64,000 bases of DNA, from positions 124,001-188,000 of the forward strand of contig NZ_AP023354.1 in the NCBI RefSeq assembly GCF_018324685.1. The letters run 5' to 3'. This DNA comes from Actinocatenispora sera (GTDB taxonomy: Bacteria > Actinomycetota > Actinomycetes > Mycobacteriales > Micromonosporaceae). The number at the start of each line of letters is the position of its first letter. Positions within the stretch are counted from its first letter, which is position 1. This document shows, piece by piece, positions 31,654 to 38,247 of this stretch. The notes under the pieces are model-generated. The model had not been told where the DNA came from and did not search any database. It saw only the letters and a list, made by a program, of their open reading frames with translations. Both the position numbers and the translations under genes were made by a program.

Positions 31654-32424
31654 TCAGTGCCCGTAGCGGCGTTGGCGGTTCGCGTAGGACCGGAGTGCGC
31701 GCAGGAAGTCGGTGCGCCGGAAGTCCGGCCAGTGCGCCTCGCAGAAGTAGAACTCGCTGTGGGCCGACTGCCAGGTGAGGAAGCCGGACAGCCGCTGCTC
31801 GCCGCTGGTCCGGATGATCAGGTCCGGGTCGGGCTGGCCGCGGGTGTAGAGGTGCTCGGCGATGTGGTCGACGTCGAGCACCTCGGCGAGTTCCTCGATG
31901 GTGGTACCGGCGGCGGCGTGTTGCTGCAGCAGCGACCGCACCGCGTCGGCGATCTCCCGCCGCCCGCCGTACCCGACGGCGACGTTGACGCGGGCCCCGC
32001 CGGTACGGTCCGCGGTGCGTTCCTCGGCCGCCTTGAGCACCTCGGCGGTACGGGCCGGCAGGACGTCCAGCGCGCCGGCCACGTGCACCCGCCAGGGCCG
32101 GTCGTGGGCGGACAGCCCGGTCACCACGTCCTCGATGATCCGCAGCAGCGGCTCCAGCTGCGCCACCGGCCGGTTCAGGTTGTCGGTGGACAGCATGTAG
32201 ATCGTGACGTGCCCGATGCCGAGGTCGTCGCACCAGTGCAGCAGTTCCTCGATCTTGCGACCGCCGGCCTGGTGCCCGAGCGCCGGGTCGTCGAAGCCGT
32301 TCTCCTTGGCCCAGCGGCGGTTGCCGTCGATGATGACCGCGACGTGGTGCGGCAGCGGCTTGCCGGACAGTCCCGCGCGAAGCCGTCGCTCGTACAGGCC
32401 GTAAACGAGGGTGCGCAGGCTCAC
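31654..32424 (-). CDS. uppS: isoprenyl transferase (undecaprenyl/decaprenyl diphosphate synthase, cis type)
   Basis: A 256-residue cis-prenyltransferase that elongates isoprenyl diphosphate with IPP to make lipid carriers for cell-wall synthesis. The signatures HVAVIIDGNRRWAKENGF (catalytic Asp), STDNLNRP, VGYGGRREIADAV, DPDLIIRTSGEQRLSGFLTWQSAHSE are all intact. The GTG at 32424 follows TACGCT by 8 nt and gives the usual N-terminus SLRTLVYGLYERRL. Chain length (C50 or C55) cannot be told from sequence alone. Confidence 0.95.
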   Translation of the reverse strand: MSLRTLVYGLYERRLRAGLSGKPLPHHVAVIIDGNRRWAKENGFDDPALGHQAGGRKIEELLHWCDDLGIGHVTIYMLSTDNLNRPVAQLEPLLRIIEDVVTGLSAHDRPWRVHVAGALDVLPARTAEVLKAAEERTADRTGGARVNVAVGYGGRREIADAVRSLLQQHAAAGTTIEELAEVLDVDHIAEHLYTRGQPDPDLIIRTSGEQRLSGFLTWQSAHSEFYFCEAHWPDFRRTDFLRALRSYANRQRRYGH

Positions 32425-32588
32425 GGCTAGGCAGCGTACGCCGACCGCCACCGACCGCAAGCGGCCAAGGGCCCGCGTCGGTGGCGACGAACACCCCCGA
32501 CCGCACCGGGTGCGGCCACCGGTGACGACCCGGCCGGGTGGAACGGGACCGGACCAGGCCCACCGAAGTACCGGCGCCCACCGACCGG

Positions 32589-32643: not shown

Positions 32644-33234
32644 TCAGCCGAGGTCCGGGCCCTTGCGGCGGAGGTCCTCGACGGTGGACATGGCGCCGCG
32701 CAGCTCGCCGAGCCACGCGTCGGCATGCTCGCCGACGAGCCGGACGCACCAGGCCAGGGCCTCCGACCGGGACCTGGCGACACCGGCATCGACCAGCGTG
32801 TCCAGCACGACGCGCTGCGGCTGCCGCAGCCGGGTCATCACCGGTACCGACTGGGTGGTGAACAGTTCGCGGGTCTCGCCGCAGGTGACGCCCCAGCTGG
32901 CGTGCCGGCGGTAGCGGTGCTCGATCTGCTGGGCGATGCCGATCCGTTCGTCCCGGGTCTGCTCCCGGAACCGGGCGATCCGGCCCTGTTCGGCGCCGGC
33001 GCGCTCCGCCTCGGTCACCGGCTCGTCGCCGGACTGCTCGGGCGGCGGGATGGCGCCGACGATCAGGATCTCCTCCCGGTCGACGGTGATGGTCGGCGGC
33101 TCGACGAACCACTCGTCGGGCAGCCGGCCGTGGATCCAACCCGCCGCGTCGGCGGCGGACGGCGGCTCGGGCTGCGCCCCGCCGCGACCCCTTCCCCAGC
33201 CCCGGTGCGGCGGCCAGGCTCCCTCTCCTCGCAT
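32644..33234 (-). CDS. conserved actinobacterial protein of unknown function
   Basis: A 196-residue soluble protein. A Gly/Arg/Pro-rich N-terminus (1-30) precedes a folded region: DEWFVEPPTITVDREEILIVGAI, an acidic linker, REQTRDERIGIAQQIEHRYRRHASWGV and a C-terminal helical segment RSRSEALAWCVRLVGEHADAWLGEL, which resembles the short helical motif of proteins restricted to actinobacteria. No enzyme motif is seen. The ATG follows GGGGAGGAACG. The 76-bp upstream gap is A/T-rich and contains a Fur-like imperfect palindrome, so it probably has its own regulated promoter. Confidence 0.7.
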   Translation of the reverse strand: MRGEGAWPPHRGWGRGRGGAQPEPPSAADAAGWIHGRLPDEWFVEPPTITVDREEILIVGAIPPPEQSGDEPVTEAERAGAEQGRIARFREQTRDERIGIAQQIEHRYRRHASWGVTCGETRELFTTQSVPVMTRLRQPQRVVLDTLVDAGVARSRSEALAWCVRLVGEHADAWLGELRGAMSTVEDLRRKGPDLG

Positions 33235-33310: not shown

Positions 33311-35509
33311 TCAGCGGGCGGCGGCCCGGCGCGCGGCGCGGGAGCCGTTCCGGCGGGGCCGCGGCGCGCTGGTCGCGGTCTCCGGTGGAGCGAGCAGCAG
33401 CACCGCAGCTGGCGTACCGGCGAGGCGGCCGAGCGGATCGTCCGCGCAGGCGGCGGCGTAGAAGTCGGCCGGCCGGTCACCGACGCAGGCGAGCACCTGG
33501 CAGCCGCCGCCGACCCGGTCGGTGCCGACCACCGCGCAGCCGGCGATGCCGGTGGCCACGTCGTCGCGCAGCCCCGCCCGTACTGCGGCGAGCAGTTCGG
33601 CGGCGGCCGCCCCGGGGTCGGTCGGTGCGGCGGCCACCGCGACGTTCGCCGGGAAGGTGGCGCGCTCCACCGGGCCGCGCACCTGCCGTACCGGCTCGCC
33701 GGCGACCCGGTCGAACATGCCCTGCCGGTGCACCAGCCGCCCGCCGGCGCCGGCCGCGGCGGCGAACAGCATCCGGCGCAGCCCCGCCTCGTCGATCGCG
33801 GTCTGCATCGTCCACGGGTTGCCGAGGCCCTGCCAGGAGCGATCCCGGACGAACCCGGACATCCGCCGCGCCCACCAGCCGGGCCGCAGCTCCCACAGCG
33901 GCCGTACCCGACCCTGCGCGACCGCCAGCGGCCGGGCCGCGACGACCAGGTACCAGCAGCGACCGAACCGGCGCCGGTACCGGTCGTCGGCGCAGGCGGC
34001 ACGCACCCGTTCGGTGACGTACCAGGCGATCGAGTCGGCGTAGGCGTCACCGGCGCGCAGCGTCCGGGTCACCACCGGCAGCCGCAGCCAGCGCGCGCCG
34101 TCCACCGTGGTACTGGACGGCCGCTCCGGGGCGGCCTCGACCGGCCGGACCGGCGTGCCGGACTCGATCAGCCGCAGCCAGCGCTCCAGCAGGAACGCCC
34201 GCCAGAACCGACCGGCGTCGCCACGGCGGCCGGCCAGCAGATCGCCGAAGCCGGCGACGACCTCCCGCGGGTCGGGCCCGGGCCGGCGGGCGAACGACGT
34301 GGACAGGAACGTGGCGTACACGTCGGCCCGCAGCGCGCGCAGTACCGCCAGCGTGGGGTCGGCCGGCGCCGGGTCCGCTGCCGGCACCGCCTCGGCGGGC
34401 AGCCCGCGCCGGCACCGGGCCAGCAGTTCGCGGGCCGCGCCGGTACCGGCGACGTGCCGGTACGGCATCTGCAGCGCCACGCCGAAGCGGGTGGTGACCC
34501 GGTCCGCCACCCGGGTCAGGTAGCCGGGCGCCACGGTGTCGGCGAGCAGCGCGGTACCGCCGAGCGGGTCCAGGATCGCGTCCACCTCGCCGGCCGCGCG
34601 CCGCGCCACCACCCAGGCGGCCAGCACGTCCGGATCCGGTACCGGTTCGCCCAGCCCGGCGAGCAGGTCGTCCACGTCGGCGACGGTCACCGGTACCGGC
34701 GCGTCCCGCAGCCCGGGCGCGGTGACCGCGTCCGGGGTGGTCGCCTCGGGGAGCAGGGCGCGGTAGACCGGCAGTGCGTCCGCGTCGTCGCCCGCCGCCG
34801 GGTCGGCGGTCGGGAGCGCGTCGGCGGGCGGGACCGGCTCGGTGCGCGCCAGGCCGAGCAGCGCGACGCCGGTCATCGCGCCGTCCAGCCGTACGCCGAG
34901 GCGCAGTCCGGCGCCCACCGGCGGCGGCGTGGCCGGCGTACCGGCGCCGTGCGCCACCGGGCGGACGCCGTGCGCTCCGACCTCGAGTACCTGGCCGGGC
35001 AGCAGCCGGCGCACCCCGGCGAGGAAGGTACGGGTGTCGACGTCGCAGTCGCCGTCGACGCGGAAGCGCGCCATGGTGTCCGGATCCGGCCGCGCCGGTA
35101 CGCCGGCGGCGAGCAGCGCGGCCGGTTCGGACGCGACGAGCACCGCCCCGTCGTGCCGGGCGTAGTAGAGCGGCGGACCGTCGCCGTGCCGGCACAGCAC
35201 CAGCACCCCGCGCGCCGGGTCGGCGAGCACCGCGGCGTACGGGTCGGTGGCCGCCCGGCCGCTGACCGCGCCGGCGCCGCCCTCGGCGTACCGGGCGAGC
35301 AGGGTGGAGGGCTCGGCGACGCCGTCCACGACGACGGCCGCCCCGCGGTGGTCGCGGTGCACCTGCGGGATCCCGGCCCGTACCGCCATCGCCAGGTGGC
35401 CGGCGTCGTCGTGCCAGTCGGCGACCTCGTCACCGCGCGGCGCCAACCCGCGGACCAGCTCGTCGAGTGCGTGGCCGCCTATACCGAAATACGCGGCAAG
35501 TCCTGCCAT
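33311..35509 (-). CDS. asparagine-synthetase-like pseudoenzyme fused to CofE/F420-0:gamma-glutamyl ligase-like domain
   Basis: A 732-residue fusion. Residues 1-200 follow the class II glutamine amidotransferase of AsnB (counterparts of hRGPD, DR-G-KPLYY as CRHGDGPPLYYA, ASEPAALLAAG), but Cys2, the glutaminase nucleophile, is Ala (MAGLA). Residues 200-440 follow the AsnB synthetase domain, but the ATP PP-loop SGGxDS is LDGAMTG (208-214) and the SGDGGDE motif is DPLGGTALL, so ATP-dependent synthesis is unlikely. Residues about 472-715 match the stand-alone F420_ligase (PF01996-type) family: TRTLRAGDAY, LVVAARPLAVAQGR, LRPGWWARRMSGFVR, GLGNPWTMQTAIDEAGL, MLFAAAAGAGG, GMFDRVAGEPVRQVRGP, DDPLGRLAGTP. 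The usual SEK motif is replaced (VAARP). The basic tail is [12 protein letters not shown]. The ATG at 35509 has GGAG 11 nt upstream. Function unknown. Confidence 0.75.
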   Translation of the reverse strand: MAGLAAYFGIGGHALDELVRGLAPRGDEVADWHDDAGHLAMAVRAGIPQVHRDHRGAAVVVDGVAEPSTLLARYAEGGAGAVSGRAATDPYAAVLADPARGVLVLCRHGDGPPLYYARHDGAVLVASEPAALLAAGVPARPDPDTMARFRVDGDCDVDTRTFLAGVRRLLPGQVLEVGAHGVRPVAHGAGTPATPPPVGAGLRLGVRLDGAMTGVALLGLARTEPVPPADALPTADPAAGDDADALPVYRALLPEATTPDAVTAPGLRDAPVPVTVADVDDLLAGLGEPVPDPDVLAAWVVARRAAGEVDAILDPLGGTALLADTVAPGYLTRVADRVTTRFGVALQMPYRHVAGTGAARELLARCRRGLPAEAVPAADPAPADPTLAVLRALRADVYATFLSTSFARRPGPDPREVVAGFGDLLAGRRGDAGRFWRAFLLERWLRLIESGTPVRPVEAAPERPSSTTVDGARWLRLPVVTRTLRAGDAYADSIAWYVTERVRAACADDRYRRRFGRCWYLVVAARPLAVAQGRVRPLWELRPGWWARRMSGFVRDRSWQGLGNPWTMQTAIDEAGLRRMLFAAAAGAGGRLVHRQGMFDRVAGEPVRQVRGPVERATFPANVAVAAAPTDPGAAAAELLAAVRAGLRDDVATGIAGCAVVGTDRVGGGCQVLACVGDRPADFYAAACADDPLGRLAGTPAAVLLLAPPETATSAPRPRRNGSRAARRAAAR

Positions 35510-35667: not shown

Positions 35668-35979
35668 ATGATCGAGCCATCGCGGCCGGAGGTGCGGCAG
35701 TTCGTCGCGGCGGTCAACGCCGGAGACCGGGCGGCGCTCAGCGCGACCCTCACCGCCGACGCGACGATGTCCGACGACGGCACCGACCGGGACCTGCGCG
35801 AGTGGACCGAGCGGGAGATCTTCACCAGCAACGGGACGATGGCGGTCGAGTCGGAGTCCGACGACGGCCTCGACCTCCTCGTCCGCTACACCAACTCCAC
35901 CTGGGGCGTGATGAACACCCGGTGGCACTTCGTCGTCGCGGACGGCCGGATCAGCCGCTTCGAGACCGGCCAGGCCTGA
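35668..35979 (+). CDS. SnoaL/NTF2-like domain protein
   Basis: A 103-residue cone-shaped alpha+beta barrel protein: RQFVAAVNAGDRAALSATLTADATMSDDG, TEREIFTSNGTMAVESE, RYTNSTWGVMNTRWHFVVADGRISRFETGQA. This is the common fold of small SnoaL-type enzymes and binding proteins; no specific substrate can be read. The ATG has GAGGAGG upstream. It stands alone between the AsnB-CofE fusion and the thioredoxin-fold gene. Confidence 0.82.
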   Translation: MIEPSRPEVRQFVAAVNAGDRAALSATLTADATMSDDGTDRDLREWTEREIFTSNGTMAVESESDDGLDLLVRYTNSTWGVMNTRWHFVVADGRISRFETGQA

Positions 35980-36141: not shown

Positions 36142-38154
<2,013 letters not shown>

Positions 38155-38247
38155 GCATCCCATCCTCGCGCAACCACCGCCGCCCCGCTCGGACACCACC
38201 GGACGGGCCGGCCGGACCGCCTCACCAGGTCGGCCCGGCGGGCAAGA

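Follow-up and report, generated by a model that had tools for sequence, protein, structure and literature searches.

A fusion protein of AsnB-like and CofE-like domains with degenerate catalytic signatures in Actinocatenispora sera

The fusion ORF and its locus

The window analyzed in the current study is a stretch of 64,000 nucleotides from the genome of Actinocatenispora sera (NZ_AP023354.1, positions 124,001 to 188,000). Its minus strand carries an ORF of 732 codons, in which an AsnB-like half is followed by a CofE-like domain, and a gene for a DUF255 protein lies upstream. The features of the locus, with the evidence for each in brackets, are as follows.

33311..35509, minus strand: fusion ORF, 732 aa (ATG start; homologues; dN/dS)
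34160..35509, minus strand: AsnB-like half, residues 1-450, with glutaminase-like and PP-loop-synthetase-like parts but without key catalytic residues (profile, alignment, fold)
35045..35047, minus strand: Cys155, shared by all 13 window-clade sequences and by 2 of 6 in the sister group; 88% of 65 further sequences longer than 800 aa have His here (alignment)
34868..34885, minus strand: former PP-loop, residues 209-214, SGGLDS changed to DGAMTG with one Gly kept (alignment)
34550..34570, minus strand: former DGxGADE motif (DGQGADE in relatives), residues 314-320, changed to DPLGGTA with the first Asp kept (alignment)
33362..34138, minus strand: CofE-like domain, residues 458-716 (AlphaFold pLDDT 91.4; Foldseek)
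33932..33940, minus strand: former SEK motif, residues 524-526, changed to AAR (alignment)
33515..33529, minus strand: former IDAND motif, residues 661-665, changed to VGTDR (alignment)
36142..38199, minus strand: DUF255 / Thioredox_DsbH gene (PF03190), nearest same-strand upstream gene, 632-bp gap (Pfam)
35668..35979, plus strand: SnoaL-like ORF between the DUF255 gene and the fusion, E 1.7e-4, under the gathering score (Pfam)
32644..33234, minus strand: neighbour on the downstream side, 196 aa, matching no Pfam family at E 0.001 (clustering)
31654..32460, minus strand: UppS-like prenyltransferase (PF01255), syntenic (Pfam)

Full-length homologues of the fusion ORF were found in three genomes of the same genus (92, 88 and 67% identity), and beyond the genus homologues share 35–46% identity over long stretches. 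No internal stop was present in the ORF match in the four genomes of the window's genus. The ORF was searched against 61 genomes, among them that of the window itself, and matched 28. Read by hand, the table of matches shows the fusion, or its C-terminal domain, in 20 of these; in the remaining eight the match is confined to residues 64-184 of frames of ordinary AsnB length. In the order sample, 14 of 298 genomes had a match, one of them a weak match of 65 positions. Five matches (L006, L010, L012, L014 and L015) were listed with one internal stop, and for these the frames between stops were used.

With Pfam profiles and the sequence alone, the window protein gave a GATase_7 match at E 0.012. 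It scored 23.9 bits against TIGR01536 (E 1.9e-5), below the cut-off of 267.1, and nothing matched in an HMMER search of PDB sequences with the window protein alone. The predicted full-length model (pLDDT 88.9, pTM 0.89, 60 alignment rows) has the Ntn-glutaminase plus PP-loop synthetase fold. Foldseek matched it to TsnB9 (7ylz, E 7e-16), beta-lactam synthetase (1mc1, E 4.4e-14) and AsnB (1ct9, E 6.7e-12), and separately to CofE (E 2.1e-5). Kinship of the N-terminal half with AsnB is weak from sequence and clear from the predicted fold. It shares the two-domain fold of AsnB (1CT9, TIGR01536, PF00733), but the window protein lacks Cys2 (Ala when aligned to intact relatives), the PP-loop and the Asp-Glu of GADE, so that none of the Cys nucleophile, SGGxDS and DGxGADE motifs of the TIGR01536 family is present. 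TsnB9 (7YLZ), beta-lactam synthetase (1MC1) and carbapenam synthetase (1Q15) are the top structural matches of the full model. These enzymes presumably keep the ATP-using synthetase site, and we know of no CofE-like domain in any of them. A first-pass annotation of this DNA had described a two-domain AsnB layout in a dead half, which fold and alignment bore out, and its readings of the changed motifs (Cys2 to Ala, the PP-loop, the SGDGGDE-type motif and SEK) proved right on alignment with intact relatives.

The same annotation assigned the C-terminal half to the CofE/F420_ligase type. PF01996 had no match up to E 10 in the window protein or its C-terminal half, which, taken strictly, goes against that assignment; relatives and fold support it. 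Six of eight relatives of the C-terminal half matched PF01996 at E 6.3e-5 to 0.03, each under the gathering score, and two (L036 and L042) had no match, while all nine stand-alone relatives examined scored above it. Profile-profile comparison with FbiB domains gave a probability of 17% (E 1.4e-3) with 89 rows and 82% (E 1.1e-5) with 20 rows, suggesting a weak to moderate link. The AlphaFold model of residues 458-716 was built with 89 C-terminal rows, and in a Foldseek search of PDB it matched five chains at E 1e-3 or better, all of them CofE of Archaeoglobus fulgidus (2g9i, 2phn, 7uld; best E 3.1e-7), and no other fold. The superposition is moderate (TM 0.49-0.55, 16–17% identity). AsnB-type and CofE-like halves were thus both recovered in the predicted models, as the annotation had anticipated, and since the alignments behind both models contain intact relatives, the fold assignments lean partly on those. 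The CofE link required the relatives and the fold, because the window protein alone gave none in Pfam, or in PDB by HMMER.

Residues 458-716 are predicted to share the fold of A. fulgidus CofE (2G9I, 2PHN, 7ULD) and of the N-terminal domain of FbiB. Unlike CofE, the window protein has lost Lys and Asp positions and is fused to an AsnB-like half, and its family often occurs in hosts without CofD above the cut-off. At four positions occupied by K, D, D and D in intact relatives, the window protein has R526, R611, G662 and R665, and we take these positions to be metal-ligand or active-site residues of CofE. A GTP/Mn mechanism has been described for CofE (PMC10861534); the residue numbers of the lost positions do not occur in the available passages of that paper.

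The gene caller was a simple GC3 or ORF-length script, so that gene starts are approximate and most names of neighbouring genes were assigned by eye. In 13 of 13 window-clade loci, the closest gene upstream on the same strand is that for DUF255; this count overstates independence, as four of the 13 sequences come from one genus. The gap between the two genes is 616–735 bp in the window and the two nearest species, and 30–303 bp in the other ten. In the sister clade DUF255 lies near the fusion in L039/L094, L043 and L097 and far from it in L041; it was not found in the examined stretches of L044 and L095. Among the remaining loci a DUF255 match was seen only in L141, about 7 kb away. The SnoaL-like ORF was called in the window and L032, and is absent from the calls in L031 and L033. 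The family of the 196-aa neighbour is present in 9 of 20 clustered regions and adjoins the fusion in seven. The neighbourhood is common to other genera and consists of housekeeping-like genes (UppS-like and DUF255 by Pfam, the rest by eye). No biosynthetic cluster was seen around the fusion ORF when its neighbours were judged by eye, and a role in such a cluster was rejected.

The AsnB and CofE-like fusion family

A domain-architecture search had been suggested by the first-pass annotation, and a scan of named genomes did reveal a family of AsnB plus CofE-like fusions, with 223 confirmed relatives; the 80 best were retained. This best-first sampling means that degenerate members are under-represented in the counts that follow. 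The gene was located in 79 of the best 80 of 223 (L096, on the same contig as L044, had no gene call): 64 are at least 800 aa long, 53 are 850–1000 aa and seven are shorter than 400 aa. The AsnB synthetase signature is kept in 56 of these 79, and 53 of the 56 also have Cys2. Among the best 80 of 223, hosts on the Actinomycetota side include Salinispora, Stackebrandtia, Knoellia, Flexivirga, Catenulispora, Actinomyces, Brachybacterium and Coriobacteriia, and on the Patescibacteria side Roizmanbacteria, Saccharibacteria and Nomurabacteria. The fusion is widespread in Actinomycetota and Patescibacteria.

The window protein has the colinear order of the family, AsnB-like then CofE-like, with homology along its length. 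All five intact fusions that were scanned (L048, L046, L102, L127 and L105) passed the TIGR01536 cut-off, and intact relatives are roughly colinear with CofE in the TSK/SEK, LLP.DPD and SDT/IDAND regions. An unfused version, with AsnB and CofE-like genes separate and adjacent, was found in another family of the phylum (L195:5217-7934, minus strand).

In seven loci (L127, L148, L151, L156, L159, L161 and L170) a gatC-like gene follows the fusion within 34 bases, with gatA-like and often gatB-like genes close by; GatC at L127 was confirmed by Pfam. Four of these loci are from Roizmanbacteria, one from Patescibacteria and two are titled bacterium only and cluster with them. As close kin, the seven are not independent observations. 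The gene that comes after the fusion in L157 is instead one for a tRNA synthetase of class II (D, K, N).

The CofE-like domain was also seen in other settings. It ends proteins with a TPR-like N-terminal part, judged by eye, at L204:5184-6593 and L205:4162-5535, and in two genomes (L197 and L198) a stand-alone CofE-like gene lies near genes that by eye resemble those for SUF iron-sulphur assembly. In the window's own family, a 359-aa frame (L049:4707-5786) contains the CofE-like domain alone.

A plasmid search gave no match to the fusion, and a phage search matched two unannotated faecal records. The first-pass annotation knew of no characterised fusion of this type; likewise, no paper describing the fusion or the window's clade was found in searches of an open-licence library. 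In the accessible part of PMC2922099 the search terms occur in contexts other than such a fusion. The word asparagine is absent from the main text of the F420 review PMC8498797, passages of which name FbiB as the CofE fusion. FbiB (CofE plus nitroreductase) is another CofE-type fusion, differing from that of the window in partner domain, position and pathway.

Gene content was compared across 40 host genomes. CofD scored above its cut-off in 18 and had no such score in 22, some of which may reflect incomplete genomes; the latter hosts include isolates of Dermabacter, Brachybacterium, Actinomyces, Schaalia and Gleimia. TIGR01536 scored above its cut-off in 35 of the 40. The five without it are the hosts of L118, L131, L145, L155 and L162, each of which has a dead AsnB half, which suggests asparagine auxotrophy or another route in these organisms. 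A full-scoring AsnB does occur at another place in the genome of five further hosts with dead fusions (G000, G040, G048, G055 and G059). Where the fusion is intact, it is the sole full-scoring AsnB in 17 of 28 hosts (frame lengths, by eye). The window genome has a full AsnB at C1:4317090 and an FbiB-type ligase at C1:2582449, plus CofD. An F420 role for the fusion was rejected in view of this separate FbiB-type ligase and the many family hosts without CofD above the cut-off.

Residue losses, tree position and selection

Residues were scored on a single alignment of 99 sequences. None of the 13 window-clade sequences retains Asp611, Lys626, Asp662 or Asp665; these residues occur in 86 of 86 others, or in 85 of them for the IDAND positions (Asp662/Asn664/Asp665). 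Six of the 13 have lost the Lys of the SEK motif, which is replaced by Arg in five of them, the window protein included, and by Glu in the sixth; the other seven, among them the congener L033, keep it. Judged from these residues, the ligase-like site is not uniformly erased across the clade.

A first count of the AsnB state over 97 rows gave 57 active, 30 dead and 10 unscored. The CofE-like signature is intact in 83 of the 97 and not in 14, namely the 13 of the window clade and L123, which has one D to E change. The fewest changes of AsnB state on the tree were nine at first, eight without truncated rows and seven when the mixed L104 was also removed. For the recount, 55 active and 29 dead rows were used, dropping L164, L137 and L157 (cut frames) and stand-alone or short rows. 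Forcing the 29 dead rows into one clade was rejected (p-AU 0.0033). The changes are read here as probable losses; the fewest-change count itself carries no direction.

In the tree of 109 rows, from which L094 (contig of L039) and L160 (contig of L046) were left out, the window protein falls in a 13-row clade (support 100) within a 19-row clade (96). In the other six rows of the larger clade the AsnB half is dead and the CofE-like signature intact. The tree was made by a quick method, and long branches and odd letter make-up were flagged, for the window protein among others. The window protein shows the traits of the DUF255-linked degenerate clade: loss of both signatures, an upstream DUF255 gene and Cys155.

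For the whole ORF, dN/dS was 0.20 and 0.22 against the two nearest species and 0.46 against a third. The corresponding values were 0.12, 0.13 and 0.38 for the CofE-like half and 0.23, 0.27 and 0.51 for the AsnB-like half, by the Nei-Gojobori method, which is crude at this base composition. The value of 0.46, together with the long branches of the clade, indicates relaxed constraint. In addition, 27 columns show a residue that is shared by 12 or more of the 13 window-clade sequences but occurs in less than 15% of 65 others over 800 aa; Cys155 is one of these, and several lie near residues 91-112, 149-167 and 287-310.

Possible roles of the window protein

From the architecture, predicted folds, residue losses, tree, synteny and selection described above, we consider it slightly more probable than its negation that the window protein is a repurposed double pseudoenzyme, a member of the fusion family that partners the DUF255 protein, in binding or regulation, without the ancestral chemistries. 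Asparagine and glutamate are both products of AsnB. The AsnB half of the ancestor probably served as asparagine synthetase for the cell, and the CofE-like half is likely to have carried out a GTP-driven ligation of asparagine or glutamate to a carboxylate. The AsnB site would then have been lost repeatedly with the ligase signature kept, and in the window's clade the ligase-like half would also have lost signature residues, so that both activities are presumably gone. The protein itself appears to have been retained, with both predicted folds, constraint, conserved residues of its own and its place downstream of the thioredoxin-fold DUF255 gene. Since the gene is kept beside the same DUF255 gene in several genera, repurposing is favored over decay. 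A binding or regulatory role with the DUF255 protein is most likely, and this partnership is our best guess from gene order. The wide gap between the two genes in the window and its two nearest species, and the SnoaL-like ORF within it, speak against the partnership. More tentatively, and with less than even probability, many Actinomycetota and Patescibacteria, often lacking F420, may use a bifunctional asparagine synthetase-amide ligase to form an asparaginyl- or glutamyl-conjugate, and in one lineage this protein would have become a non-catalytic DUF255 partner with a new function.

In the proposal of the first-pass annotation, the AsnB half, though dead, would bind a substrate (acyl or amino acid) on behalf of an active ligase-like half, in cofactor or peptide tailoring. 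The CofE-like fold, the stronger constraint on that half (dN/dS 0.12-0.13 against near species), the SEK Lys surviving in 7 of 13 clade members (not in the window) and the sister clades that combine an intact CofE-like signature with a dead AsnB half are all in line with it. Against it for the window protein stand the loss, in 13 of 13, of four positions held in other clades, the presence of CofD and of an FbiB-type ligase encoded elsewhere in the genome, and a neighbourhood in which no biosynthetic cluster was visible by eye. A working ligase is unlikely here, and as a whole the proposal is distinctly improbable; the partly kept Lys leaves the clade less settled, and a dead AsnB half beside a live ligase fits the sister clades better than the window protein. 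The CofE fold could also suggest an ordinary enzyme of F420 biosynthesis, but the lost signature residues, the FbiB-type ligase elsewhere in the genome and the 22 of 40 family hosts without CofD over the cut-off make this extremely improbable.

Loss of both signatures, patchy presence (20 of 61 relatives; 14 of 298 genomes of the order sample), long branches and a dN/dS of 0.46 against the third species would all be expected of a decaying relic heading for loss. The constraint on the gene makes such a relic less likely: there is no internal stop in four same-genus genomes and dN/dS is about 0.2 among close species. Both folds are moreover confidently predicted, DUF255 is the neighbour in 13 of 13 loci and the clade has conserved residues of its own, and decay is accordingly judged improbable. 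Conserved residues of this kind might instead reflect a new catalytic activity, either at a rebuilt site, for instance one around Cys155 and the segment Asp110-Pro112, or with different ligands in the CofE-like fold. The 27 newly conserved columns and the SEK Lys kept in part of the clade are consistent with this, but the conservation may reflect structure or binding and no catalytic template was recognised; we regard new catalysis as rather unlikely.

If the window protein is a repurposed partner of the DUF255 protein, its clade would give a way into the study of DUF255 proteins, a term that occurs in four papers of the open-licence library searched. The AsnB site lost several times, and then the ligase signature in the window's clade, would provide a series leading from a bifunctional enzyme to a pseudoenzyme. 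Within the wider family, the intact fusion appears as the sole AsnB of many hosts examined, reduced Patescibacteria included, and a CofE-type ligase in hosts that often show no CofD points to an unrecognised metabolite or modification.
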